NCBI GenBank assembly: GCA_019055375.1
Contig: JAHQIW010000810.1
Location: forward strand, 1 to 64,000
DNA length: 64,000 bases
DNA from: Parelaphostrongylus tenuis
Taxonomy: Eukaryota > Nematoda > Chromadorea > Rhabditida > Metastrongylidae
Direction of reading: 5' to 3'
Shown here: positions 3,101 through 64,000 of the stretch, in pieces
How the letters are laid out: each line of letters opens with the position of its first letter
How positions within the stretch are numbered: the first letter of the stretch is position 1
Notes under the pieces: generated by a model
The model's input: only the letters and a program-made list of their open reading frames with translations
The model's database searches: none
What the model was told of the DNA's origin: nothing
Position numbers and translations under genes: made by a program

Positions 3101-6100
3101 CTCAAAGTACGATGATTTTCAACAAGAGGTTCGTTACCTTAGCACCGTCTCCCAAAGGCACAAAAAGATCGACAGTCCTATCTGAAAGTCCACGTAAAAT
3201 TTATTCCAGAAACCACTACCATTCCGGTTACGTCATAGCCAGTAAATTGTAAACAGTAGCAAATTGGAAGGGATAGTTTTGAAAACTTCGGAGAGAAGGA
3301 ACTTGTCTAAGGCATCAATGGGTGAAACATGAAATATTCCAAATCTCTACGATTCTTTCTGTTTTCAGAAAAAATACAGAAATTATAGTAAAAAATTCAA
3401 AAGTCTTTAAAACTCTTTAGAAATTTGTCTGCAAGGTATTCAGTATTTTTGTATACACTCCGCTCCTCGCATTCATTCTCAGCAGAACTCTTCGGAGATT
3501 TCACGTGATGTTCGCTGCTGTTTTGAGGATCTACAGAATGTTGTAGAATGCTAGCTGGACTGATGCTTTTTGAAATATTAGAAGTAGCTGAGATAAAGCG
3601 TTCTCACTTGGATTGTAAGGTAGCGTTAAGAAGGAGCTGCATCAAACCTTGGTCTACATCATCAATCGCTTCGCTATCTCTACACCCTTTGAAAATTTAC
3701 ATCTTACAATCTAAATGTAGCGTACCCTGTAGCGTAACATATTTGGAAGACTTCCAATGAAGGCGATTAGCCACACCGATGATGATAGCAATGCAAGCGG
3801 CCGGATAGCTGTTGCAAGGCGGTATACGAGTGTGCGGATGGCTGCCACGAAACAGCACCAGATATCTAGAAGTGGACAGATTCTGCGATATTGGGATGAA
3901 ACCTGAATGTTTGGTCGGATCGAAGATGCCTTTTGCCTTGATTTGTTCGATTATCTGTTGGAAAAAAATCCCACCATTTCGTGCTAGTAATTATTTTCAA
4001 TCATGACTCATTCATATGTAGTTTTTGTATCCAATCACTCTCTTTTTATAACCACACTTCTAATTTTGAGTCATGTATAATTGAGTTGTTGACGTAAAAA
4101 TGAATAAGATATTTGGCACTGATCTTTACTTGAGGGGTACGCTACGCTTTCGACTTTATTAGACATCGTCAAAGAGGACTGAATACGCATCTGGCCTGTA
4201 TAGTGACTTGCCCTGGCCTACCAATGTGTTAAATACTACTGTCCTCCCAGGCAAGTATAGCACCATTTTTTCAAATCCAGAAAGATGAAGAGATTTGTGA
4301 ACCCAGAGAGCAATATTAAACCTAGGTCCACATTTTTATTTCCAAGTCACCACTGATACCGTCTGCACACTCTCCGTGGTTGCAGTGAGAAAGAATAACC
4401 GCTGTTCATAGTTTTTCGTAGCTGTTCGATGATATTGCGGATTTTTTCGGATCTAACATTTGAGTATTCTCCGGGATGGATGTCTGAACTTGTAGCACGC
4501 TGGGAGATCATATTGATCATCGCTCCTTATGCTCACTATTAATTCGGTAGGACTTATATCAGAGCTCGACATTAAAAATGCAGAGCGAAAATGAAAAGAA
4601 GAAATATTATAAACCTCCACAAGCATAGATTTGAAAAAAAAAGTCAGCTACCAATTTTGAAAAAGCCGGATCAACCTCGCGCAATCTGACTAATGAATTA
4701 GAAATCAAAGAAGTGCTGCAACACCTTGACTTTCCGTTCAAAGCCGAAAATTTTTCATCTAGCCGTAGAACAGGCGTAAACCAACGGGTAAAACAATATT
4801 TAGTTGAATGCTAGAAATTGAAATCATTTAACAATGCATTGGCACTTTTTCATTGTTTCAAATTCCACATCTTACCGAAAATTTCCGACAAGTACTGTGA
4901 GCAATTTAGAAAGTGTCGAAGACAAACATTACGATTACAAAGTTGCGACAACTACGAGCACTTCGGCAAATTATCAACGTTTGTGCAAGTCTCTTTACCT
5001 CATTACCCGCCATGTTCACGGTGATCCAGAGACTAGTGCTATGAACAAACACTGAGAACATCGCGTAGAATCTGGTGTAGATAATCCATATATGCGTAAA
5101 GAACCACGGATGACAAATCTCCACCTGAACGATGTGAGTTGTCAGAAAAAAAAACCGTTCATCGCTAAGTTACTACGACGCTGTCTATAAGACCTTTGAC
5201 CTCTTATTTAACTTTCATTTCCCGCTTGATCCAACAAAGTAAGATGTGAAAACTACAAATGTGGATGCTGAGATATAAGCGGAAGAGTGAGCTCGCCTTC
5301 CACCATTATCAGGGGCGCCTGGTAACCACTGCGCTAGCAAAAGCCTCTCTGTTATCATTCTTTCAGCAATATAGGGTATCAATCTATCAGCAAGCATCCG
5401 TCAGCGGGATTGGTCTGATAAACATATTCCGCCATTGAACCCAGTCGGGCTGATAGCTACCGAAAACATATACATATATGTACTTATGTATACATATACG
5501 TATATTGTGCATAAACATACATATGTATACGTACATATTATACATGTACGTATATTATATATATATATATATATATATATGATAATCAACGAGAACTCAT
5601 TCATTTACAGCTCTTCAAGCACTGTTATGATGCAATACTATATATCCAACATTGCTGAATGATATGCAAAACTCTGAAGCTTAGGCGGGAGCAGGATCCG
5701 CTTCTCTCTTACCAAGAACGCGTGCTAATAACCACACTACCGAGGCTATGAAAATGCTCTAAAGACCTCTTTGAGCGCTACAGTTTCTAAAGATACTCTA
5801 AATAATGGCACTCTTACAAATTGTGCAGGAACAGTTCCTATAAGATTTTCCCACAATCTGTAGAAGCAACTCACATTCCTAAATTCTTGCAAGGCAAGGA
5901 AAATGAGCTTCTCCGTTTTACTTATTCATAAAGGCTCAAGCAAAAACAACCAGCTTAGATGAAACTTCAATAAAGTTCGATCAAAAAAATGATAATTGTT
6001 GCTTAACATTAGTTGGAAATACAAATTTCGCTGAGAAACATCTGTTGGCACGAGCTTTCCTATGGATTTCGCGAGAAGCTTTTAGCAAGTCCTTTCACCC

Positions 6101-9100
6101 TAACGGTTTTCCTTGCCATAGATGGAACAATATGTAAATCAGTACTGCTGTCGTGAGAATGAAGACATTAACAAGTAGATAAGTTCTTATCCAAAAGGAA
6201 AACTGAAAGAATAACGCTAACGGCTTTGAAAAAACTCAAGTGCTTATCTCTAAATTTGTACTTGACATTTCCAATACAGTATCTAACATGCTTTGACATG
6301 AACATTGACACAGTATTTGACATTAGTTGTAGCAGCCCTATTTCTGACAAAATAGAACGATTCAAGAAGCACTCAGGACAAAAATACGTAGACTTTGCTA
6401 AAAAGTAACTGCATCATGCCAACCAAGGACATCTTAGAAAATGCGAACTTTTTGAAGCATTTCTTAGATAGAAACATTGTTGATCCCAACTACGTGTTTA
6501 TAAAGCAGATACGTTGCCATTAGAGTAGCATCACAGATAGCAATACATATCAGGAATAAATTAAATGGAGGAGCGTCGCATTGCCGGGCTGAAAGGAGCG
6601 ACGATTTGCGATAAAATAACAACAGATTGAGTTCTAATTGATATTACTACTCACTACAACCAATACTATAACTACTATTACAATAATTCAGCCTCCATAA
6701 AATGTCACCAATTTCGTCTTAGTTTCCGTGTCCAATGACGTCTTTACTACTTTGAAATCTCCTTAAGTGCACTTAGTAAGAAGCCTAACTTTATGACAAA
6801 GGAAATAAACATGTATTGCATGTTGAAATGCGAGAGCATCAACGTTTTGGAAAGACTTCATTTCCGAAGAATAGCATTTCTAACCCAACCCTAGTTCAAG
6901 AAAAGCAACGGACTACGGTGGGAACAAAATTTTCAAATTATTAGCTACCAGTGTGATATAGACAATTAGATAGAAATGGAATTACCAATGCATTAATTCT
7001 AATATATTTAAATGATTACCCTTCATAAATCACATACTGGTGCTTTGGTACTTTCTCCATTCAATGGGGCTAACTTTCATGATCAACTTCCTGCTAAGCT
7101 CGAGATTATTCAATAATTCGTTGTTTTTTTATTGAGTGAAAACAGCTCTTTATTATACTTTCCAAATATAAGTTGTGGCTATGGTAATTCGCTATGATCA
7201 GAGGGTAAAGATATCAAATTGACTACAAGTTAGTAAGCTAGATACCTTCATAAGCAGCTCAAAAAATGATGTTAGACTACACTAGAAACAAAACTGCAAA
7301 CCCACACAATCAACGCTTTGTTTGAGTCTTCTACCAAGTACTGCAAGTGGAGATCAATCATAAAACTTTATATGAATTGCCAATGCACTTTTTTCACTTT
7401 AAGGAAAGTGTCCTTTAATGTGCCAGATCAAGTGTGATAACGAAGGATTCCTCCCACTTTCTATTGATTGATTCATGGAATCCATCCAGAACGCTTAGAA
7501 AGCCATATTATGCCGCAGTCTCCTATTCCTGCGTGAGTATAGTGACTTCTTCTTCAAAACCTGTGTAAAGAGCAACACCAAAGACGTCGTTATATTTGCT
7601 GCGATGTTCCATCTTTCAGTTCTCTTTGCGATGGCTACGGTGACCATTGCAAAAGGAACAACCGCTGCGGAACTCGGCTCAATTCTTCGTGGCTTCAAAA
7701 GGCGAATTTGCCGAAATGTTAGCTTATCTCAATGATAGTATGCTAAAGATCTCGTGTTCATCCAACAACGAAATAGTGAACACCTTGTGATAAATCAGAT
7801 TGGGAATAGGTTTTCGCCCGAGTCTTCATAAACAGTTCCACGGTTTCCACGCTGTTCTCAGGATGTCACCACAGTCACTTATGCCGTTGCTGATCACATC
7901 GAGGTATCATGTATCTGCGGCTGAGCTTATTAGAAAAGGTTCCTAATTTTGGTTACTGGTTAGCTGAACTATCGGGCTACTATTTTGCCTTGATGAACGA
8001 TATTGGGAAATTAATACGAGATGTACATCATAGTTTGATACCCACACACACCTACATTAACAACGAGCAACGACCATTAGGAGCAATGGCGAATTGTCAT
8101 AGACTAAGGCAATAATAGCCAAAAATCCGCGAAGACTGATTATTGAGCAAAACCTTAAACCTCGAGCGGGGTTGACACTCGTCTCACCCTTACCTAGGGG
8201 TGCGCAGATCACTGCACCATTGCTGTTCCTACTTTGGTGCCACACTTTCCATGCATAGGAGCTTTTAGTAGCCAATAATTAGCAAGTTGTGGTCTAGCAA
8301 GCACATATCAGCATCAAATCCGGCTAAACTGACTCCAAAACATATGAAGGTAAAGAATTTAGCTTTTGGCGTTGATCAATTTATGAGGAATGCGCCATGC
8401 ATTCGTCTTCAATTTTTAGCTTCGTTCAAGGTGATTGAATGCATATCTGGCCCTTACAAAGATTCGCGGTGGCCTACCGCTGCATCGAGTCATTGTTGCT
8501 TATCCTTTTAGAAAAGGTGTGGCACCAATTTACCAACCCTAAAGGAACGGATGGCTTGGTGAGCCATGAGCGCGAGATCGAAACATTGACTTTGGGTGCA
8601 ATGCAGAGCACCTCTAATCACTGCGCTACATGCGCTTTGTTGAAAACATATAATATATGAGAATTCTTTATCTTACCGATTTTATAGAAGGTCATGCTTT
8701 TATAGCTCAAAGTACAAGAATATCAATTACTGTACTAAACTGTGAACTTTGGATGGCAGTTGGACCCGAGTCACACCCTTGGAAGTGATAATAATTGAAC
8801 ATTGACCGGTGACAAGAATAAATCAAAAAATTTATTAACTAATTTACTAATCTACACATGTAGGGCGAACTCAAGTAAAACTTGAGGGAACTTTTCATAC
8901 TAAGAGGATTTGAGCAATCACTTGATACTTATAGCTCTAACAACCCATAAAATCACAGATGGTTTAGAAAATTGGTAAAAAATCAGAGCACATCTAACTC
9001 AATGCCAGTATCTGTTTCTTCTTCTACAGTGTTTTCTATTTGAGACATACCGTAGCAAAACGACGACAATGGCAACGTTAGCAAACACACCAACCACGCA

Positions 9101-12910: not shown

Positions 12911-13401
12911 TCCATCCACGTGCTACTTCAAAATACTGATTTTGGGTGATAAAATGAAAGCTTTCATAATGCTCATCTATACAGAAGTAAAAGTAACAGA
13001 ATCATGGAACGAAATTGAATTTCGTAAAACAGCACCAAAAGGAATCACATTCTCAGTGCAACGTTACAATCAAAGAAATCGATGCCCCATTGTTAAGTGC
13101 GTGCAACTTATTGCCATCTATGGAGAATTTCGATTACTAGCTCAACGATGATTTTGTGGATGGTGTATAATTCGAAGTGAGTAGAAGCGAAATTGATCCA
13201 ATTATTGGAGGGTAGTGTTGCAAAGCATCGCAGTAACTGTGCAACAGCTAAGTGACTGAAGATGTTGGTGAGAAACCATGAAAAATGAAATATACGGCAA
13301 TAAGTCACCATTTGATCGCATTCCAACTACACGATTCGTTGTTGCCAAATCGTTTTTCTGGTGCTTGTTCAATCCTTATTAAGCAGCAAAATATTGCGAA
13401 T
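12911..13401. other. No feature recognised
   Basis: Nothing beyond short chance open frames. Confidence 0.5.
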
Positions 13402-13712
13402 ATAAAGGATAAAGGATAAAGCTCTCGGTTGATCAATCCCTGAGGGTTGCGCCATGCATCGCCTTCAATTTTTTTTCAAACTTTGTTTGAGGTGATTGAA
13501 TGCGTATCTGGCCTTTACAATAACTCGCGTAGCTCTCGCTGCGCCGAGTTAGTGCTGCTTATCCTCCCAGACAAGTTTGAGACCAGTCTGGTACCAATTC
13601 ACCGACCGCGAAGGAATGGATGGTTTGGCGAGCCATGTGCGCGAGATCGAACCATTAATCGCATGTGCGACACAAGCACCTCTAACCACTCCGCCACATG
13701 CGCTCTTATTGC
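13402..13712 (-). mobile_element. tRNA-derived SINE, family A, near full length
   Basis: Minus-strand copy. The head has A box GTGGCGGAGTGGTTAGAGG (near 13685-13703) and B box GGTTCGATCTC (near 13645). The body contains the TGGCTCGCCAAACCATCC block, and the end has GATTGATCAACCGAGAGC followed by two TTTATCC heptamers at 13402-13420. This copy shows the tail best. Short tandem tails rather than poly(A) resemble RTE-mobilised SINEs. Confidence 0.88.
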
Positions 13713-18619: not shown

Positions 18620-18919
18620 AAGGATAAGACTGTCGGCGTTGATCAATCCCTGAGGGATGCGGCAAGCATTCGTCTTCAATTTTTAACTTCGTTTGAGGTG
18701 ACTGAATGCATATCTGGCCTTTACAGTGACTCGCGGTGGGTCTCTCGCTGAACCGAGTCAGTGTTGCTTATCCTCCTAGGCAAGTCTGAGACCAGTATGG
18801 TACCAATTCACCGACTCCGGAGGGGTAGATGGCCTGGTGAACCATGAGCGCGAGATCGAACCATTGACTTCGTGTGCGACGCAGAGCACCTCTAACCGCT
18901 AACCTCTACGTGCGTCCTT
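18620..18919 (-). mobile_element. tRNA-derived SINE, family A, near full length
   Basis: Plus strand begins AAGGATAAGACTGTCGGCG and carries GATCAATCCCTGAGGGATGC, then CATATCTGGCCTTTACAGTG, GGCAAGTCTGAGACCAGT, TGGCCTGGTGAACCATGAGC, and the B box as GAGATCGAACC. The A box is damaged by a small insertion near 18895-18910 (ACCGCTAACCTCTACG). Confidence 0.85.
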
Positions 18920-23084: not shown

Positions 23085-23362
23085 CAGTGATTATAGGTGC
23101 TCCGCGTCGCACCACAAAGTTCATGGTTCGTTTCCATACCCATGACTTAGCAAGCCACCCATACTTTCATGGCTGGTAAATTGGTGCCAGACTTGTTTGG
23201 GAGGATAAGAAGCACCGACTCGATACAGCGTTGGGCCGCCACGAGTCATTGTAAAGGCCAGTTATGCATTTAATTACCTCAAACAAAGCTAAAAATTAAA
23301 GATGAAAACATGACACCTCCCTCTTGCAGTGATCAGTGCCTTCCCCTTTATCCTTTAATCCT
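23085..23362 (+). mobile_element. tRNA-derived SINE, family A
   Basis: Head eroded: AGTGATTATAGGTGCTCCGC and ATGGTTCGTTTCC (B box). Body: ACTTGTTTGGGAGGATAAG, GGCCGCCACGAGTCATTGTA. It ends in a TTTATCCTTTAATCC tail at 23347-23362. The element lies between RTE relics and a mariner. Confidence 0.8.
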
Positions 23363-31610: not shown

Positions 31611-31654
31611 ATAAATAGCAGTGGTATCCACAATTCCAGGTATTTCCATCATCT

Positions 31655-31830
31655 GACCTGGGGTGATTTTTTCACTCGGCGTCGATTGCTTTATAGAGAG
31701 AGGATTATTCGACTTCAGGAGATCGGCTGGACCGAGCAAGAGAGAGGTGCTACTATGAGCCCCAATGAGACGAAACAGGCTAATGCATTGCACTAGACCT
31801 AACAGCTTAAAACATGTTATATCTTTATCA
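31655..31830 (+). mobile_element. MITE family Q, partial copy (Q2)
   Basis: Contains CACTCGGCGTCGAT, GAGGTGCTACTATGAGCCCC, GCACTAGACCTAACAGCTTA and a TTATATCTTTATCA end; each block aligns with the reverse complement of the complete element at 52005-52265. One inverted end is missing. Confidence 0.75.
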
Positions 31831-33512: not shown

Positions 33513-33622
33513 CTCAGGGGATAGACTGAACCGAGGTAGGGTGCAACTGATGAGTCCCAACAGGGTCAAACAGGCGCCTGCATAGCACTAGACCTAACGG
33601 CTCAAAACATGTTACGCCTCTA
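33513..33622 (+). mobile_element. MITE family Q, partial copy (Q3)
   Basis: CTCAGGGGATAGACTGAACC, GTGCAACTGATGAGTCCCAA, CAGGCGCCTGCATAGCACTA and GACCTAACGGCTCAAAACAT follow the right half of Q1 closely. The left half is absent. Confidence 0.78.
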
Positions 33623-36296: not shown

Positions 36297-37400
36297 AAAC
36301 CTCAACTTTATCGGCACACAGGCCAAATGAGACTTTTGCGATAGATATTCAGAGCCATAGCCATAATATGGAAGATTACTACCTATAGAATCAACATTCC
36401 TCATCGTGCGCTACTTTGCCATGTAGAAGGGACTTTTTAAGTCAGTGCAAATCGGGAAGGTTATGAATCGACGAGGTCATAATGCCTACAGGTACTGTAA
36501 ATCTGAGTGCCGACTGGTAAGAAGCTTTTTTGTAATTCTCAGATTCTCGCGACTCATTATTTTGGCCATATTTTAATTGTTCGAAGCATTTGCATAGCTG
36601 ATGTTATTTCATTACATGAACACATCCACAGCAACTTACCCATCAACAAAAACGCGATTATTCTTGCGTGAAAACTCCCACTCGTGTGGAAAAGCATTGG
36701 ATATACAGATTTGGTTTGAGTCTGACACCTTCCTCTTCCTTTATTTAGGATCGTTTTCGCATAGATCACTATAGAATAAAGGGCGGTACAATAGATACGG
36801 TACATCAGTATGACCTTGCTGGTGCAAAATTTGTATCATGCGAGCTTTCAGAGAGAGTAATCGTGGCTTCAAGGCGCACCTGAGGTTTCGAGTTATGCCC
36901 GTATTCCAGCATTCATACTGTTGCTGCAGCATTGTTGATGCACACGAACGCAATTTTAGAAGTTTCAAGTTAAGTTCCCTACTTCTTCGAGCAAATATCA
37001 GCCAGTTCTAAACAGCTGACATCTTTCAAATTAGTTGATTTGGAAGTCATTTAACATCTATTAAAAAAGATAAACACTTTCACACTAAACCAATTGAACC
37101 GTTGATATTTTGAGTTCTTGCGAACGGGCACAAAAACTGCCTAAGAAAAGCTGTCTCAAATTTACAAAGGCTGTGAACTACTTATGAGGATAATAAGGAA
37201 CTGTTCTAAAAGGACGAGGTCAGTTTTTAGAGAAAAATCGATTCAGACAATATTCGTGGAGGAAGGTAATGTTCTTAAGTAGCAGCTGAACTCAACAATC
37301 TTCATAATGGTATATGCGAGGGAACGAATAAGTATTAAAAGTGATAAGATTCGATGTATGAATCAAATCGTATACATATGATCATTAACTTATTTATATA
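36297..37400. other. No gene recognised
   Basis: Minus-strand frames at 36557-36805 and 36741-36968 overlap in different frames and match nothing I know. Confidence 0.4.
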
Positions 37401-37650
37401 GAGCGCACATGGCGCAGTGATCAGAGGTGCTTTGTGGCGCACAGAAGGTCCATGGTTCAATCTCACGTTCATGGCTCACCGAGCCATCCATCCCTTCGGA
37501 TCCGTAAATTTGTATCGGACTGGTCGCAGATTTGCCTGGAAGGATAAGCAGCACTGACTCGATACAGCGGTGGGCCACCGCGAGTATTGTAATGGCCAGA
37601 TGTGCATTTAATAACCTTAAAACGAAGTTAAAAATTGAAGACGAATGTAT
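37401..37650 (+). mobile_element. tRNA-derived SINE, family A
   Basis: Good head: A box TGGCGCAGTGATCAGAGG at 37410-37427 and B box GGTTCAATCTC at 37454-37464. Body: GGCTCACCGAGCCATCCATC, TTTGCCTGGAAGGATAAGCA, GGTGGGCCACCGCGAG, then GTTAAAAATTGAAGACGA. The 3' quarter is missing; an AT repeat starts near the truncation. Confidence 0.88.
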
Positions 37651-52004: not shown

Positions 52005-52265
52005 TGATAAGGATATGTCATATTTTGAGCCATAGGTCTAGTGCTATATAGGCGCCTATTTCGTCCTATTGGGACTCATCAGTAGCACCCTCCCTCGGTT
52101 CCGTCGATCCCTTGAGGTAAACAACCCTCTAAAGGAACCGACGCCGAGTAAAATTAAGCACCCAAAGTAGGACGATGTTATTACCTGACTTTGTGGTGAC
52201 CGGCAGTCGAGCTTACACTTATATAGCACTAGACCTATGGCTCAAAATATGACATATCCTTATCA
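52005..52265. mobile_element. MITE family Q, complete copy (Q1)
   Basis: 261 bp with perfect 46-base terminal inverted repeats (52005-52050 and 52220-52265), beginning TGATAAGGATATGTC. Inside are GGACTCATCAGTAGCACCCT and ACGCCGAGTAAAATTAAGC, which recur in Q2 and Q3. No coding capacity; its transposase source is unknown. Perfect arms suggest recent activity. Confidence 0.9.
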
Positions 52266-53446: not shown

Positions 53447-53667
53447 AAGACAATGTATGTATTTTTTCAACCATTTATGAGGTCTTTTATGGGCACTTAT
53501 ACAGTGCAAAACACGTGTTTCGGCTTTGCAACCTCATCAGTTGCACGGTGCCTTTCGTCTAAACCAATCCCTTTCGGGGAAACACAGGCTGAAACTCGTG
53601 TTATGCACTATATAAGTGCCCATAAAACACTTAATTATAGACTTAGAAAATAAGTACATTGTCAGAT
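53447..53667. mobile_element. MITE family P, copy P2
   Basis: Outer ends GACAATGT and ACATTGTC are inverted. An inner pair, 53485-53507 and 53605-53627 (TTTTATGGGCACTTATACAG-type), matches at 22 of 23 positions. About 220 bp without coding capacity. Confidence 0.8.
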
Positions 53668-56239
53668 TATATAGTTTTGAGCTAGCTTTGGAAAACAGTC
53701 GAACATGAAGGTATAATCAAAGACAGACGAATGTTTCAAATCCTTGAGAGAGCGCCGCCTGAAATTTGTGTTCTAAGGTATAAGATTGGTTTTATGAATC
53801 CAATGAGAAGACAATAAACTTATAATCCTGATCGTTACAGCTACACTATAGAATGAATGCTACGTCAAGCAAAGTATCACAAAAAAGCGTCCACCTTATT
53901 GTGTTCAGAAGGAAAGGAGTGGAAGGATTCACTAAAATTGAAGCGGGAAATGTTCATCTCTAATGATGATTCAGATGAGGCAGAAGCTCATACTATAGGA
54001 TTAGTTATGCCCACGAATGGTTACTCCAGTGTTAGCGGAATTCTTTACTTCTAGCACAGTAAGAATCGAAGTTCAAAGGGATTTGAAATGCTAAGACTGA
54101 GAAAGTTAATGGCAGCATTTTATCCAGCAAACGCTCTACAGCTTTTGTTCCCTATGACGAATGAAGTAAGCATCGCTATTAAGCCAGGTCTGAATAGACT
54201 AATTGTGATGGACGTGATAGCAGCAGTTGAAATACAATTGAATACTTTATGTCAGTCACTTCTAAACCGCCTACACGTTGAAAGAAGACACATTGCTACA
54301 TTTTCATAAAATTAAAAACACAGCCGATGCCAAATGATGGTTCACTATGAATTTCATTCTAGATGTGGACGCATGAATGTAAGAAAAAACAGTAGATTGC
54401 TCTGTATCTGTATTAGAATGGAGACATCTACATGGGAGATTTGGATTACTTCGAAGGACACTAGTAGGTACAGATAACATCGGAGGCAGCAATTCTGGAT
54501 CAACGATTCTGAGCAACAAAAGCGTTGGACCACAAGAACTAAGGAAGCGCTATAAATCAGACTTCCTCAAGATTACAGGGATTGTTCTTCTCATATTAGT
54601 ATTATGGCGATTACGTGGAAATTATATGAGCCCAAAACGTTGCTGATGAAAAACTTGCTTCCTATATAAGTATGGAAATATGTGACGCGACAGGTGACAC
54701 GTTGGCCATATTCTAACTGTTCGGAGAAGAAATCTTGATAGATAAAAGCTATAGAACCAAGTAGAACTCTATAGTAAGTTCAGGCCACTCTCAAAATTTC
54801 ATGCCGTAAAAGCTCTATTGTTAATCGTTTTAGACTGAACAGTGGAGTATTTTTATGAACTCGAAAAAAAGACAACTGGGCACACTTTTCATCGAACAGC
54901 CAGTTTTACTCTGTATAAGCGATACAGCTGCACATAAACTCAGTAATGGTGAAGCAACTGATATCTCATTTGACCATTTGTCGATTATCCCACATATAAA
55001 GCCTAAACGACCAGAACTCAAAACCAGCGCACATCAAGTCTAATCTCTCTGTATTTGTAGAAGATGTAAGCCAAATTTTAATAGTGTCCAATGCCCTTTT
55101 TGGTATGTTGCTCTCATACTAGCAGTACTTTACAAAGAGAGTGCAAGTCCACATCACTTTATATCATTCTCGCACTAAAAAGTTAGCCTTTTAGACGGCA
55201 AAAGTCATTCATATAATTCAATTATGAAGATTTTATTTAAGACTGAACGTGTTGGTGAGAAAACTATAGAAAAAGAATCAAGTGAATTAGACAGAAAAGA
55301 AACATTCTAAGAATTCATCGGCCGAATTGTTTACGAAGCGGCGACGATGACAAAACCCTCAAGATTGGAGGGCTGATTTCTCTTAAAAAGATTGCACGCA
55401 ATGTGACAAACCCGCCTTTTATAGAAGTAAAACTTGAATAAATTCCCAGAGACTTTGAGAAAAAGAGATCAATATAAAATAGTGACTAAAGCGTGTAGAA
55501 TGTCTCCCACAAAGGGTAAAAGGACCCATCAATAAGCCAAATAACTCTCAGTCGCTAACTAAATATTTCCATATTTGAACAAATTGTCGAACGAAACACG
55601 CTCTGTGCATAATTTCGAATCAAAAAAATATGTGAGAAAGTGAAATCTTTGCTTTTCCTAGACCATAGTGGTCGATTAAGTGCTTAACGACAAAGCTGGA
55701 AAGAAAATGTCTCTGAGAGGTGATTGAATTGTTTCTTCTGGGAATCATGGGATACCTCTGCTACAATGCTCCTAGATGTTTATCCTATTCAACGCGAAGC
55801 CATGTTCAAATAAATGCCATACCAGTTCGCAGAACTTGAGAAGGTCTTGCTTGACCCGGAGCGGATTCCCACCAGTGATATATTGTACAATGCCCCTGAT
55901 TTCCCGCTCCTGTACATGTACGATAGTGAAAAGCGAATTTATAAATGAGTTCCTTATGCAACTGTCCCACGTGTCAGAATATTGAATTTGTATATTTCGA
56001 TGAGTACAAAGAGGATTATTTATTCCCATAAATTTTAAAGAGTTCACTTTTCGGCAATATTAGAAGGGACTCTTAAGTAACACACAGGAATTCCTATAGA
56101 TTCTCGCTGGGCTCGAAAAATTTTTGTTGAGCCTCATTGCTTCAGAATATTAATATAACAGGTTGTGGAAAAATTCTATCGAATTTTCAAAATGCATATA
56201 AAAAATTTAACTATACACCAATTGAGCTCAACAAAGGGC
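53668..56239. other. No gene recognised
   Basis: Plus-strand frames at 53857-54054, 54088-54309 and 54855-55043 look somewhat protein-like but match no family and show no linking splice sites. The possibility of an unknown gene on the plus strand here is open but weak. Confidence 0.35.
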
Positions 56240-56590
56240 AGATTAATGGTCGAAGTAGTCTCTTTCCACATCGAGTCTTGGAAATAGCCCCAATCGTCAT
56301 TGGATCAAATCAAACTCGTCAGCCAACTTTCGGCAACTCATCGATTGACGAAGGTCTGGCGATCGACTTCTCGTGGACGTCCCTCTCCTGGTTTGCCAGT
56401 CAACCGGTTTCCTTCTTCACGAAATATCTTGAACCAGCGCAAAGCTTTGTGAGCAAAGCAAATTCCGTCAGCATACGCTTTGTAGATTTGTTGATGAGGC
56501 TAGGAGGCGTTCACATCCGATTTGTGGTGGAAATGAAGCAGCAGTCGAGTTTCTTCCTTGGACAGTTCCGTTTTGAAGGTTTTGTATATG
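56240..56590 (-). pseudogene. Mariner transposase N-terminal fragment
   Basis: A minus-strand frame (56571 to 56338, one internal stop) reads TELSKEETRLLLHFHHKSDV, QIYKAYADGICFAHKALRWF, KIFREEGNRLTGKPGEGRPR and EVDRQTFVNR. This is the mariner N-terminus: first helix-turn-helix, RWFxxFR, and the GRPxEVD linker. Catalytic domain and ends were not found. Its antisense is the longest plus-strand frame of the window (56137-56736, 199 codons), which is therefore no gene. Confidence 0.8.
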
Positions 56591-57254
56591 CAAGTGATAT
56601 GTCATTTGATGCACAAGAAAACGAGCTTCCTGATGAGCTCAAATTCGCGCAAAATAACTGCGTAAAATTCATTTTCTCAGGCAATAGGAGAATTTTTTCT
56701 AGAACCTATCACTACTCGGTAAAAGATCGTAAATAAATGGTCTGTAAAAATCCCAGCGTTGTCTACTTTCCAATGACAAGTTACGAAATGTTTGAGAGCG
56801 ATTTAAAGCACTAGTTATAGAGACTTCATACTTCAAAAACAACCGTACCTAGCCATTTGAAGACAATGACTGAGCACTCCATAGACTCCATGATATAAGT
56901 CTCCTAGTTAGTCACATTGAGAAGAGTCTTATTGCTCTTATATTGGTTTTCTCCCCTCTGTCAATCGTTGTAGAAAGAAGTAAATTTTGATGGATTATGA
57001 CTGCATTGTTATCTGGCAAAATGAATAAATCGTCAGGAATTTCACTTAGAGGCAGGATCCACATCATGGAGATGGTGCGATAAGATTATAGAGAAATCGT
57101 CCTTTATACTTTTCTGGAACACAATCAGACCATAGGTGCGGGTAATATCATATAGCAAATGATTTATGTGAAAATAATTACTAGGGCAAAGCAGACACGG
57201 CCGAATGGCACTCCACTCCATTATGATACCGCCAGGATACATATCCTGGATTCG
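56591..57254. other. No gene recognised
   Basis: Nothing recognised. Confidence 0.4.
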
Positions 57255-57515
57255 TCCGTGTATCACAGTGGCTGGTGTTGCTTAATAGACGCAAACTCTG
57301 CTTGCTAGATTCTTCGCCTCGGATTTATGAAGTCTTCCGTCTCTCCTCGATTTTAGATGGTACCAGATCCGCCTGGAAGAATGATAACATTGACTTGATA
57401 CACCGACACAATGCGAAAACTATTGGATAGGCTGGATGTGCATATGCTTAGATGCTCGATAAAGTTGAATGCATGACGCGCTTTCCAAAGAGTGGTCAAC
57501 ATCGAGAGTTTTTTC
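57255..57515 (+). mobile_element. Decayed SINE, family A
   Basis: GTATCACAGTGGCTGGTGTT (A box relic), TAGATTCTTCGCCTCGG (B box relic), GATCCGCCTGGAAGAATGAT, GTGCATATGCTTAGATGC, TTGAATGCATGACGCGCTTT: all blocks in family order, strongly diverged. Confidence 0.65.
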
Positions 57516-60112
57516 CTCGAGCTCTCTTAAACCGTGAGAAATGACAGAACGCTTATCAAGTAAGATGGGTTATATTTTGTCGAACAAACTTCCGTGTATT
57601 TTCCTATACTTCCTGATATCTTTTTCTTTAACGAAAATAATGTTGTAAAATAAATGCTTTTACTTTATTTTTGATCGCACTTGGAGCCATCTTATTGTCG
57701 TTTTCAAGTAATGAGTGCAAGAACCTGCTCTTCTGAAGGTGAATCGTTACGTAATACCCGTTGGGATCTAGAATAAGAAAGCATTCTCTGTTGTTTCGTT
57801 GATTCAGTGACAGTGATAATAAGATCGCTTTTGTGAAAGTAAATTTAGAAGAACGGTCAAATGAGAGTTCAAAGCACTATCAAAGTTTATTATGAAGAAT
57901 AGTTGTCTCTAACAATCAGCTACGTAAGAGTGAATTGAACTATTCATTTTTTAAGAGTTTTCGCATTTTTCAAAATTTTCGATGAATACGCAGAATAGAA
58001 TTGCCAAAGTTCTAGCTATCACCTGTTTCATTTGCGTTCTCGTTGATTATGGAGTGAAACGAGTAGGCACCAGTAGTCTCCATTTGCCCCAGGCACGTGC
58101 AAAGATAGTCCAGTAGGTTGTTTACCCTTGAGAACTCGTTGGGCACCGCAACTCTTTTTAGGCTCACCGGCAAGAATTCTAGCCACTCTACAGAGGATCT
58201 TTCTGCTGTTCGTTCAATATCTCGAACAATTCAGTCGCTAAACGGCTTTTTTGAAGTTAGGTGTCGTTCAAATGCATCATTTCTCCGATCCGCCTGTTAT
58301 TTGACATTTCGACGTACCATGATGCATCTCTGATCTTTAATCGCTAACGTAGAGGCAACTAAGCATTGCTGGCTATTTTACGAATATGTTCATAAGATGA
58401 ATTAAAAAGGAATTTCAAAATTTCATCCACAGTCCATGCTAGCAGTAAATCTTCATTCTATATCTCACCTCAGTTACCTAGCAATGTCCCGTTCAAGAGG
58501 TATGTTTTCTCGTGTTAGCTGGAACAGTGGAGAACATGAAAGCAGCCCTACTGCACAACGGATAATTTATGAAGGCATTAATGGTATTCACTGGAACACC
58601 CGGTGATTGATGAGATAGTAGAAGACACGAGATCCCCAATCAAAAATCTCGCCTTAAGAAGAAAATCTAAGTTTGTTCTCATAAGAAACGGTGAGATTCT
58701 CTCCTTAATTCGAATTTGCTGAAAGTGGGAGCCGCATGTATAACCCGATTAGTTAGGTTTTGCCTATATAGTAATGATAAAAATCATTCTTCAAAATTAT
58801 ATTAGAAGAAGTTAACAATTGATTAACACATTCCTGTAGGAAATCCCATGCGGGCCAACTAGGTAATGGGTAAAAAATCGATGGAAAATCATGTTTATGT
58901 ATCCTCAGAAAGGGTCCTTTAGGAAAACACGAACCACGACTTATGAATTTATTGAAGGATGCCAAGCTACAGTTCAACTCACACATGATTTTTGAAAGAG
59001 AAAAATAGTTTCACTCATATGTTTCTCTCAGATGATCATTTTGAATGTCGCTGGCGATACCATTAAAAAGTAACTTATATTGGGCTCACACAGCTGCTAT
59101 TCAATGGTACTTCTCTTTCTGAGCATTTCTCATCTACTATAAACTAAATTTTGCTAATCATAGATTGAGAAATTTATTACACCAATTTCGAAATTTTTTG
59201 GTACTGAAAATGAATTATTGAGTCTGTGAACTGAAACAGGAACATTGCTTTCACTACGGGTGACGGAATCTTTCGATACTTCAATGAAGGGGAAACGCCA
59301 ATAGCAGCCAGCAGCAAACAAAACGACAAAATTCAAGGGAAGAAAGTGGAGCCGTCTTGCCTTTTGAGATTAACATTAAAAATGCACGCAAATATATATT
59401 CACTGCTATATTGATTATATATTCATGTTGACAGAATAAAACATCAATATCGTCTTTTCCGACTAATTAAGCCAATTTTTTCAAAAATTACTTACTACTA
59501 AACTTTACTAGTAAGTCGGATAGTTGTGAAGAATGCATCGCAGCATTTTTACTAATAGACAAAATGAATGCTGAAGAATTCAGAATAACGCAGCCTCTGA
59601 GTACTAGTTTATGAATTGCTTGGAAGGGTTTCTGACAATTAACTTCTACGTCAGTGATTCATACGCGATTGTTTGCAAAGAAACGATTGCCAGGCATTGA
59701 CTGCTAACCTTTAACGAAATCAACTTGCTTGATTTCACTGAAACTCAAAAAGGCCATTTATTCCAACCATCTGAGTCTTGGGAAAGTTTTTCGTCTCTTT
59801 TAGTTCGTTTTTCAGCTCTATTTATTCACGAAATGACTCGTAACGTAGCTCACATGCTTATATCCAGTAAAGAAAAATGGCTCTGTCGTTTTTTTTGCTG
59901 CAATAGTAAAAGAAGTAAAGATATACGAATAATTCAAAATGACTGTGCGGTTTTTCTGCTGTAATAGTAGTAGAAATTAAGATATGCAAGTTAATTTCTT
60001 TCTGTTAGAAATTACATTAAAAATGCTATTCAATAATGGGTTTTTTTCGCAAGACCAACGATAGATTAACATCGGCACAGTTTGAACAGATTAATAGTTC
60101 TTTCTGTTGAGC
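57516..60112. other. No gene recognised
   Basis: Frames at 58118-58333 (plus), 58753-58986 and 59154-59336 (minus) and 59725-59964 (plus) are unsupported. A near repeat, TGTCGTTTTTTTTGCTGCAATAGTA against TGCGGTTTTTCTGCTGTAATAGTA (59883 and 59944), is a small tandem duplication. Confidence 0.4.
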
Positions 60113-60273
60113 AGTTTTGAGGTGTTAATAATAGTATTTATTGAATATTAGTGATCCATTACAACAATACAGTGCACTAGTGTCATATCACAATATCCAG
60201 TACCTACAATATCACTAATATTCAATAAATACTATTATTAACACCTCGAAATCAATAATACAATAATCGAGGT

Positions 60274-60310
60274 GGCCAACGTTTCGGCGAAACTCGCCTT
60301 CGTCATTGCC
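60274..60310 (-). ncRNA. Hammerhead-ribozyme-like motif, copy 4
   Basis: Minus strand: GGCA, ATGACGA, a perfect five-pair stem II (GGCGA/TCGCC, loop GTT), GAAAC, GTT, GGCC. Only the first core base differs from CTGANGA. Stem I has three pairs (GGC/GCC) with a mismatch at the base. The GAAACGTT box with its ACGT palindrome suits the dimeric hammerheads described for retroelements with minimal stem III. Confidence 0.5.
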
Positions 60311-60620
60311 TGGAAAGGTCAAAGCAAATCATTCAGTCAGTAAACTCTACAACCTTAGTAGAAAACGTAAGAAAGGAATGTTGGATTGCATCGTAAAAAG
60401 CTTCCTTTCAAAACACTCAACGTCTAGATGTTTCAGGTCTTTCAATTATTCATTGAAGACCTGCCTACTAGAGTCAGTGCGTGAGACTGTCCCTGACTCA
60501 GGCCGTGAAGATTAGCCTAATCATTTTTTTACTATGCATCCAAAACTTCTTTTTTATGTTTCCTGCTGAGGTTATGGAATTTCTTGACTGAATGTTTTGC
60601 GGATCAATTTGACCTTTCCA

Positions 60621-60657
60621 GGCTCTGAATAAGGCGAGCTTCGCCGATACGTTAGCC
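60621..60657 (+). ncRNA. Hammerhead-ribozyme-like motif, copy 5
   Basis: GGCT (60621-60624) pairs with AGCC (60654-60657); CTGAATA (60625-60631) has G changed to T; the stem II hairpin GGCGA-GCT-TCGCC is perfect; GATAC replaces GAAAC. Architecture complete, but two catalytic core changes mean it should be inactive. Confidence 0.48.
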
Positions 60658-60750
60658 ACCAATGTTATTCTAATATTTATGCTGCACTAGTACACTGTAC
60701 TGTTGTATTGCATCACTGATATTCAATAGATACTACTATTAGCACCTCGG

Positions 60751-63255
60751 AATTGCTCAGCTGAAATAACCACGAAGTGCGCTTTTTACATACAAAATAT
60801 TCTATATGATGATTTGAACAACACTTTGATGGTGACAACTTTTGTACTGGAAAAACGCCATTTTTTATATCTTGCTAGTTTGTAATTTGAATTTGGTGAT
60901 TTCAGGTGTGTAGTAATCTGATGGTGCAGTGTCGGGAGAGAAGGCGGGTAAGGTAAAACCTAAAATCTCTCACCGCAGCTCTTTTATGACGTTTTCGAGC
61001 GGTTTTGCAATATGAAGACGAGCATTATCATGCACCAATTTGCAAAGTTTGTGCTGTTTTAATTCTTTAATATGACTTTTGCTGTGTGATAATATGGCCT
61101 CGATATCGTTCAGTTGCGCATTTTGTCACATATTTATATGTTACATGAGAATGGTTTGTGATAGTTTAATGATGGCGCATTTGATGATTTGAATAATCTC
61201 TTTTTAATTGAATATCTTTGATATTTCATTGATATATCGAATGTGTAGATTGTGCGCAATTTCAAAATCATACGGATCCCACGGAGAAAAAAGCCTCCAA
61301 ATATTAATATGTAAAAAAACCGTTAAAAAATCACTTGGTGTTTGAGCAGTTTTATTCTGATCTTTTTTAGACTGCTATAACTGCAGCGGTTTTCTAATTC
61401 ACTTTACTTAATGAAAGTGTGAGATTGATATGAAAATGAAGTACGAGCTGTAATTAGCACAAATATGTAAAATAAAATTCAAATTCGTAATATGGGTGGT
61501 AAATTGTGCTCACGAAAGCATGATTAATTCAACTGTCTTGGTATGCTCTTTTATATGAAATACAAAAAAAGGTGTTTAGCGTCGATCAAAGGAGTACGAA
61601 TGCTCCATGTTTGCTACTCCATTCGTAAAGAGTATAGATAATTGGAAGCATATTTGTCTTACACATTATTCTTTCAAAGCCTAATGATATCTAAAGTTAG
61701 TGCTTTTTATGCTCGCAGAGAAGCCTAGTGAAAATCCGCCGACTCGATAAGGCTTGCTCAACGTATGGAGCGCTATCGAACCCAACGACTAACTATGTAG
61801 TGGAGGTTACATCTAGCCACTACATCACGCGCATATTTCTCCTTGTTATATTTCCTAGAAACTTCACTCGATTGCTTAGAGAAAGACAGCCTTTTAACGA
61901 AAACAGTGCAGACTGTTAAAAAGTAACAGATTACTTTATTACTAATTTCGGTAAAAGAATAAAAATCATGGTGCAACGTGACTGATTCAAGCGAAAGGCT
62001 AAAGCGAGTCGTCTTAAGCTAATAAAATGCTACCCTTTACTTTGTCGCGGTAAGCAAGCAAGCAAGCATATTTCGAACATTCAAGTACACCTATATGTCG
62101 GCGCTAAGGAGTATTTGATCAAATTTTTACTGAACTATTAATATAAATTTCTTTTTCTCTTACAGATTATCATCAAACACGCAATGTGCGTAATCCAAAA
62201 TTGCAAGAAAGTTCAGGAGTCAGAAGAATTGGGTAAAAATGTACACTTCCATCAATTTATCAAGTATGGCAGTCTCTAGAATAGGCCAGAAGCACCTATT
62301 ACTGGATGAATGTGAATCCTATATGTACAACAACTTGCTGACGGGAGACAGTGTGTGAACAAATCGAAGCTCAACAAATCAAAATCACATACGAGCCTAT
62401 AAACTTATTGAGCTTAAAGAATATTAAGCTCTTAACTCTTTCTCCACCTAACACTGAATCGATGCCCACTACGTTCTGTGTAGAACGGCAAGATTTTAGA
62501 ATATTTCATTCTGTACAAATTTTTGCGAAGAACTCCGTAAGCTCATATGGCTGTGTCATCTGTGGAACTATGATTTCACGTTGGTGGAAATCAACTTGAA
62601 TTATTGGCTTTGAAAAGGGCGAATATCTCGAAACATTCGCCAATCAAAATTATCGTATCATCCAAGCGGCATGTGTAGAAGCATAAAATAAACTATGACT
62701 TTATGTGTTTCAAAACCATGAACAGACACTGTGAGATGACGGTGGAATCTCTGACTCTTTGACTGCCAAAAAATTCTCATACTCGATACCATATTAATCC
62801 ATTAAAGACCAAAAATAATTTTATCCTCCTCCGCTGAGCAAATAGCCTCATCTCATAATGAAGCTCAAATTAAGGTGAAGAACATCGCAATCTAACCACA
62901 TTCGCTAATTAGACACAAGGTTTTTCTATTCCATGAAACATATTCTAAATTTTTGGCAGTCTACGGTTATTTTTTCCCTCTAGGCATAGTTGAACGTCCT
63001 AGAACAAGCGAGATTCTATCCAGCAGGATGTGGCAGTGTTCTCAGATTGTGTGCCCATGCTAGACAGTTGTTCCTCTAACGTTAAAGATTGGAAAATTTG
63101 TCTAATATAACAATGATTCATAAAAATTTCATTAAATGAAAAACCGAGGACAAGATTTCAGAAGAGTTCGTTCGTAGGCACTTATATCGAGAAAGCAAAA
63201 TCTTGTTTCGAAGTCTGTCAAATCCCAAAAATTCTGTAAGTACTCAGTGATGCAG
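60751..63255. other. No gene recognised
   Basis: AT-rich. Frames at 61728-61919 and 62351-62599 (plus) are unsupported. AAGCAAGCAAGCAAGC at 62053-62068 is a short tetranucleotide repeat. Confidence 0.4.
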
Positions 63256-63455
63256 AGTGATGTGCAAAACCTTTTGCGTCAGGTGGGAGTTGGGCCAAAC
63301 CGTTGACGGTTGGTTGCTGACAGATAGATGCGCTGTAGAGTAGAAAGACTGATGTCAAAACAGACGTCGGTAGAGCAAGGGCTCGAGCACGCAACCTCGT
63401 ATAGGATGAAATATAGATTCGTATCCTTTCTGACGCAAAAGTTTTGCACATCACT
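63256..63455. mobile_element. Two family B SINE ends in inverted orientation
   Basis: 63256-63282 and 63430-63455 are inverse copies of AGTGATGTGCAAAAC-TTTTGCGTCAG with one base difference. The right half, plus strand, has CGGTAGAGCAAGGGCTCGAG (A-box-like, about 63368-63387) and AGATTCGTATCC (B box, about 63415-63426) before the fixed end. The left half is the opposite orientation with a degenerate head. Confidence 0.62.
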
Positions 63456-64000
63456 TTACATCAATGGGTAAATCTTTAACATCATACTACCGCTAAAAAC
63501 GGTTAAATAAGAAGAATTTCATGTGATAGACTATAAGTAGCGGATAGTTATTTGAGTCACTGAACAACTGGCACTAATCATCTCAGAAGAAAAGTTAATA
63601 TAGCTGCGATTGTGTTCAACGAAGATACATTGAGATCCATTGATCACGGAGGGAAGCCGATGAGAAGCTATTGATGAGACGAATGGACATCACAATGCAC
63701 TGATGGTGGTGTGTAACGATGGATTGATGATGATTGTTGTACGCCATTGGATTCACGTATGTATGTTGTCCTTCAAACAATGACGAATAAGTTTGTTTAT
63801 GTTTTTCAAGAATTGTATGCATTCGGAAACGATCAGATGACCTTTTACTTGATACCAATGCTTTTGTTTTTCAAACGAATCCGCTGACGTAATCCTCTTA
63901 AACTTTCAAAAAAACCAATGTAGCTTTTCTTAACGTAGCTGTATAAAAAGCTATGAGTAGTTTGAAGGTCTTTTATGTACCTATTTATGACGAGAAGCCA
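63456..64000. other. No gene recognised
   Basis: An 80-codon minus frame (63616-63858) has no match. The last 40 bases (AGGTCTTTTATG) resemble the P family left arm but are cut by the window end. Confidence 0.35.

Follow-up and report, generated by a model that had tools for sequence, protein, structure and literature searches.

The window, that is, the whole stretch of 64,000 nucleotides of Parelaphostrongylus tenuis DNA analysed here, contains a long inverted element at about 60047..60770, in which two arms carrying hammerhead-like units lie head to head. The preliminary description had placed it at 60113-60750; it extends further on both sides, to about 60047 on the left and to 60770 on the right, the right limit being good to a few bases. 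Three inverted pairs were found in the arms, namely 60097-60182 with 60685-60770 (84%), 60251-60323 with 60608-60680 (81%) and 60324-60386 with 60538-60600 (78%), and since the first two have a common centre, the whole is a single foldback. Compared with gaps, the arms are identical at 192 of 235 positions (~82%) and are separated by an unpaired stretch of 126 nt; the predicted RNA fold reaches -296.4 kcal/mol, compared with -143.0 (sd 7.2) in 20 shuffles. No second copy of the element was found elsewhere in the 64-kb window. RNA editing as the source of the G-U-compatible arm differences was considered and rejected, as an excess of such differences was not supported (15 versus 9, p = 0.31).

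The two arms differ by about 68 bp at 60183..60250, which are present in the left arm and absent from the right one. Within this extra segment, at 60211-60247, the left arm's stretch 60119-60155 recurs in inverted orientation. The perfect 37-base palindrome that had been described is real (37/37 complementary), as is the third, diverged copy of its arm at 60712-60748, which matches at 33 of 37 positions. The perfect arms had been taken to imply young age or gene conversion. If the palindrome copy were as old as the element, the chance of 37/37 identity at the arms' divergence would be 0.0006, so that the 37-bp copy is either later than the element or was kept alike by conversion. The extra segment thus looks like a local templated insertion, and the palindrome would have arisen by later inverted copying inside the left arm, unless conversion held its halves alike. 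Youth of this kind applies to the 37-bp pair within one arm and not to the element, which is old, as the 82% likeness of its arms indicates.

On its sense strand, a unit of the Penelope-like element (PLE) family to which both arms belong runs from the ORF end through the pLTR (hairpin plus hammerhead) and an outer repeat to a tail. The left copy (60047..60518, minus strand) is the longer arm and comprises the last ORF codons, the pLTR, a hammerhead-like unit and the tail. Its ORF end (60498..60518, minus strand) reads RLIFTA followed by a stop, comparable to the ..LYLRLIFPA and stop at the ORF end of the family copy L028. Close to this stop lies an imperfect hairpin (60435..60464) with a similar stretch in the family unit; it was rejected as a dimer junction because it belongs to the pLTR. 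The decayed tail (60047..60090, minus strand) corresponds to the first codons of the PLE ORF, which read MPRLIDSRTWD in copy L011. The right copy (60519..60770, plus strand) is the shorter arm and lacks the tail; it starts at about 60519-60525, the boundary between the copies (~60518-60525) having been set by eye. Both are 5'-truncated PLE copies reduced to the 3' end, and neither reverse transcriptase (RT) nor GIY-YIG sequence was detected, as no Pfam family matched at E<=0.01 in six frames of 54001-64000. The window copy is thus a remnant and not an autonomous PLE, with only the last codons and the decayed start-codon tail left of its ORF.

Two hammerhead-like units on opposite strands had been reported as facing each other. 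The units and their strands stand, but their orientation is reversed, as both read outwards: the left one (60274..60312) on the minus strand and the right one (60619..60657) on the plus strand. A 24-base hammerhead-like pattern (≤3 mismatches) gave two matches in 64 kb, on opposite strands, and none in 100 shuffles, of which the second match alone is informative, the pattern having been derived from the left unit itself. In hammerhead core numbering, the left unit carries C3 to A, with 5/5 pairs in stem II and 3/4 in stem I, and the right unit carries G8 to U and A14 to U, with stems I (4/4) and II (5/5) fully paired. The cores have thus diverged, as originally noted, and the changes disrupt the catalytic core in both units; on this basis the hammerhead is predicted to be dead in the window copy.

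Other copies are better preserved. The hammerhead stretch is present in 54 of 59 family arms, and in 23 of these 54 the core is intact, meaning that all 11 core positions are kept together with an H at the cut site. The most frequent family form is CAGGCT CTGAAGA TGGCGAACCTYGCC GAAAC GTA AGCC, with GGCU/AGCC as stem I and GGCGA/UYGCC as stem II, and in L011, L033 and L037 the core is kept in both opposed arms. Cervera and De la Pena are said to have described in 2014 a minimal type I hammerhead of PLEs, with CUGANGA ... GAAAC, stems I and II of 4 and 5 bp and hardly any stem III. The shape of the present family matches this minimal form, from which the window copies differ by their broken cores. 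The available parts of PMC11167929 and PMC7229834 back both the core numbering and the minimal form. An intact unit folds with stems I and II as drawn (z -0.93 versus shuffles), and single-unit RNA folding was not distinctive overall (z -0.9 to -1.5 versus shuffles). Rfam gave no hammerhead match on the window element, which says little because intact relatives are missed too: the intact L037 likewise gave none at E<=10, and the Rfam hammerhead model therefore misses such a minimal form. Pattern scans of viral_contigs gave no match. The AUG in the left hammerhead (read MTKASFAETLAT) was rejected as an ORF start, as intact copies have an immediate stop there and the ORF starts in the tail.

The preliminary description had proposed a genome-wide search for further copies, their boundaries and target duplications, and for full copies enclosing an RT and GIY-YIG domain. 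In its own genome (481.5 Mb, 5105 contigs) the element has at least 112 matches, a count based on the scoring of 40 among 2630 candidate places. The sequence is neither single-copy nor are all its copies fragments of an unrelated known transposon. In L028, two direct pLTRs flank an interrupted ORF with remains of RVT_1 (E 0.0027) and GIY-YIG (E 0.0036; 0.00032 when the ORF piece was searched alone), and L019 has the layout inverted pLTR, pLTR, ORF with RVT_1 (2.8e-6), pLTR; in both of these decayed copies the RT and GIY-YIG scores fall below the Pfam cut-offs. Three related proteins were scanned, and P0001 and P0003 score above both the RT and the GIY-YIG cut-off, P0018 above that for RT only. 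When the GIY-YIG part of L028 was compared with proteins, 44 matched, with identity to nematode proteins of 63-43%, and the 40 named among them all come from Ancylostoma, Necator, Haemonchus or Heligmosomoides, which points to a strongylid nematode as the probable host. The protein starts resemble the tail encoded in L011 (P0003 MPRFIESRTF, P0018 MPRLNDSRT), as does the L028 ORF piece.

Given these fuller copies, the earlier suggestion of a collapsed Penelope-like terminal region proved essentially right in that the arms are the pLTR and 3' end of a PLE, which may have collapsed from a fuller insertion or been short from the start. We consider it very probable that the window stretch is a single old insertion of a GIY-YIG-bearing PLE, reduced to two 3' ends (pLTR with hammerhead, tail) placed head to head. 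The window copy is an ordinary decayed remnant of a known kind and a new family member. In a literature search on nematode PLE hammerheads and on the head-to-head PLE mechanism, which reached few subscription papers, we found no account of this family, and among the matches listed for a query by motif letters there were unrelated papers only. L028 also contains a tRNA match at 397-470 on the minus strand (41.9 bits).

To compare copies, we used 39 loci, namely the window and 38 fetched stretches (L009-L046); the first 20 of these span 8-9.5 kb and the last 18 span 1.5-3 kb, cut towards the unit's 5' side, where distant partners were missed. The head-to-head layout was present at 21 of the 39 loci (the window, L009-L012, L015-L019, L021, L022, L024, L032-L034, L036, L037, L039, L044 and L045), a share inflated by the choice of loci as best matches to a head-to-head query. 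Clear target duplications (10-16 bp, score >=9) flank 6 of the 18 dimers tested, compared with 4 of 306 mismatched flank pairs: L011 (13/13), L012 (12/13), L016 (15/16), L021 (10/10), L033 (11/12) and L037 (14/14). The direct repeats of L010 and L032 score 8, a level also reached by 5 controls, and that of L019 (10/12, score 6) lies within the control range. At the window copy no target duplication was recognised in the outer-end direct-repeat test (score 5).

In all 13 dimers whose ends could be read (the window, L010, L011, L012, L015, L016, L017, L019, L021, L022, L033, L036 and L037), one arm is tailed and the other tail-less; the remaining 8 of 21 (L009, L018, L024, L032, L034, L039, L044 and L045) were left unscored, since one of their ends had decayed, could be read in more than one way, was missing or fell beyond the stretch. 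In unit coordinates, tailed ends stop at 405-409 and tail-less ends mostly at 353-371 (earlier, at 339, in L017). The tail-less ends of L011 and L016 were set by eye, as their alignments continued into the target duplication, and that of L022 is weakly aligned.

Whether the two arms of a dimer stem from one template was addressed by comparing them. Both arms fell into the same of three subfamilies in 11 of the 11 pairs in the tree, and the two units of L013, which are not head to head, belong to different ones. The arm tree, examined for whether the arms within one dimer are sisters, is star-like, with only 4 of 32 inner branches starred. The window arms are 77.6% alike, compared with 82.8 and 81.6% to L012_l, and are not mutual closest rows; the subfamily containing them has a support of 93/86, below the starred level. 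L037 is the youngest dimer, its arms being 97.7% alike with gaps. Of 466 sites compared, 462 are identical, each arm accounts for 2 private differences, and the arms have in common 8 states that are uncommon elsewhere in the family, which indicates that these arms come from one template sequence. Differences for which both states are common in the family make up none of the 4 in L037 or the 16 in L011, 6 of 24 in the window, 11 of 33 in L012, 17 of 64 in L033, 9 of 22 in L010, 50 of 193 in L021 and 33 of 117 in L024. In the older dimers, such differences could reflect recurrent change or two templates, and they count against an identical birth of the arms unless recurrent mutation is responsible.

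Similar arrangements are known from other hosts. According to the available part of PMC3846280, the Adineta vaga elements Pen2a and Pen3a likewise have a direct pLTR to which an inverted one is joined head to head, carry an optional tail on one inverted pLTR and have a pLTR and tail that run into the first ORF codons. The same source reports target duplications of 8-10 bp for the endonuclease-bearing A. vaga Penelope elements and calls unsettled how PLEs make inverted head-to-head insertions. The present family differs from these in host and family, its relatives being nematode proteins, in the frequency of ORF-less dimers among our matches, and in the hammerhead in its pLTR, of which PMC3846280, as far as available, makes no mention. 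Poseidon PAc of Anolis carolinensis (PMC11167929, available part) is also a PLE with RT and GIY-YIG; its short hammerhead, made up of stems I and II, lies close to where the ORF begins, and its RT likewise starts inside the template, producing a genomic tail. The PAc ORF begins inside the hammerhead, whereas here it starts in the tail, ~130 nt downstream, and intact copies have a stop soon after the hammerhead AUG. Metazoan retrozymes share with the present units short, ORF-less type I hammerhead repeats, but they are direct tandem repeats in the part of PMC7229834 available to us, and the present units are inverted pairs of an ORF-bearing PLE; membership among the retrozymes was rejected, the units not being direct tandem monomers.

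How could such dimers form? In our main reading, an element protein would cut the target with a stagger of 10-16 bp, and the element RNA would be reverse transcribed from both staggered ends, so that the 3' part of the RNA comes to sit at both ends of the target. One cDNA would begin with the tail and its counterpart ~40 nt short of the tail, and both, being truncated, would meet in the middle. More tentatively, we propose that head-to-head insertion is a regular PLE product in this genome and no accident, the two ends receiving cDNA in a coordinated manner and the tail-less arm always starting from a second fixed site, with outward-reading hammerheads as a result. The hammerhead itself is a feature of the parent family, in which it presumably served to trim tandem transcripts, and in the window copy the 37-bp palindrome would have been added later by local inverted copying in the left arm. 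If synthesis begins at both ends of a staggered break, the arms come out head to head with their tails outwards and a target duplication around them, which is the arrangement observed. In the available part of PMC11167929, the PAc protein acts on both target strands in vitro, cutting and extending each, with RT beginning inside the template and leaving a tail. If coordinated insertion holds across the thousands of copies, the genome would be an in vivo display of this two-sided target-primed reverse transcription. At the L037 junction the two breakpoints have at most one base in common (one case, by eye), which leans towards two-sided priming. Starts made independently of each other would not account for the strict one-tail rule, which calls for some coordination between the ends.

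A possible alternative, which we also hold with reserve, is self-priming, in which the tail-primed cDNA folds back and copies its own strand into the inverted arm, the loop being the unpaired stretch (126 nt in the window). The available part of PMC3846280 prefers this route for A. vaga Penelope, on the grounds of palindromes seen where copies join head to head. The L037 arms look identical at birth, L024 is a loop-less palindrome, and every readable dimer has a tail-less end, as though back-copying halted early. Such ends are, however, also seen where the fetched stretch contains no partner copy (e.g. L020 and L025), the single shared base at most at the one L037 junction would be too little to prime, and fold-back is unnecessary if both target strands can be cut and extended, as PAc does in vitro. 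The two priming routes differ in what they predict for junctions and ends, and these predictions can be counted and tested in genome copies. Up to 2630 candidate places are available, including young dimers such as L037 in which the paired hammerheads are intact and the target duplication is clean, and these less decayed copies could help to reveal how mirror-image insertions form.

Against the main reading stand the missing target duplication at the window copy, the lower likeness of its arms to each other than to L012_l, and the chance that a short dimer is a collapsed longer insertion. On this last view, an L019-like insertion would have lost its ORF through recombination between two direct pLTRs, leaving the head-to-head pair and its flanks. 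L019 shows precisely the starting layout, and target duplications and the single tail would survive, but the long dimers L017, L021, L024 and L033, with ORF 3' parts in both arms, cannot be produced in this way, and the L037 arms begin at different points inside the ORF; we regard this route as unlikely. The preliminary description had also raised a new non-autonomous, ribozyme-bearing element, which here would be a foldback family propagating as a unit. L010 and L011, alike over 625 bp (87%) and of the same layout, both match the window across the centre at 72%. However, the inner break points of the window, L010 and L011 differ (by eye), as they do among these, L012, L015 and L037, and separate events are therefore favoured over a propagating unit; moreover, the window belongs to a different subfamily from L010 and L011. 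The sole clear junction in common, between L039 and L045, is a single head-to-head insertion that occurs at two places together with its flanks (97.2% over 2833 bp), either a segmental duplication or unmerged alleles. With junctions varying among copies in this way, a family of this kind is very improbable. A DNA transposon with terminal inverted repeats (MITE or foldback) carrying hammerhead-like motifs by chance would account for long inverted arms without an ORF inside, but its probability is close to nil given the unequal ends with a tail on a single side, the tail that is itself ORF sequence, the arms that run into RT/GIY-YIG ORFs in other copies, and the PLE copies themselves.

Further repeats were noted. 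Another foldback in the window (53449-53663) contains a hammerhead with longer stems (unit at 53504-53546, minus strand), which Rfam Hammerhead_1 matched with 27.5 bits against a cut-off of 34 (E 9.5e-5 when 401 bases were searched). Cores like this one occur in L020, L015, L016, L022, L038 and L044, some of them outward-reading within palindromic repeats. Copies of a palindromic repeat lie in the window at 52005-52224, 31622-31830 and 33513-33614 and in L009 at 3352-3852, the last with a canonical-looking hammerhead core at 3779 (plus strand); these may represent head-to-head ends of additional PLE families. Two other PLE-like matches to CTGANGA...GAAAC, each having GGCT ahead of the core, were found in the window at 2150 and 45617, both on the plus strand. 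On contig C1239, L026 and L027 form a 3.4-kb inverted repeat with copies ~42 kb apart (98.8%). Finally, a dispersed repeat of ~250-300 bp, 75-82% alike, occurs in the window at 8342-8642, 13400-13711, 18620-18897, 23085-23306 and 37396-37647, and L016 contains near 4581-4937 a translated stretch similar to it.
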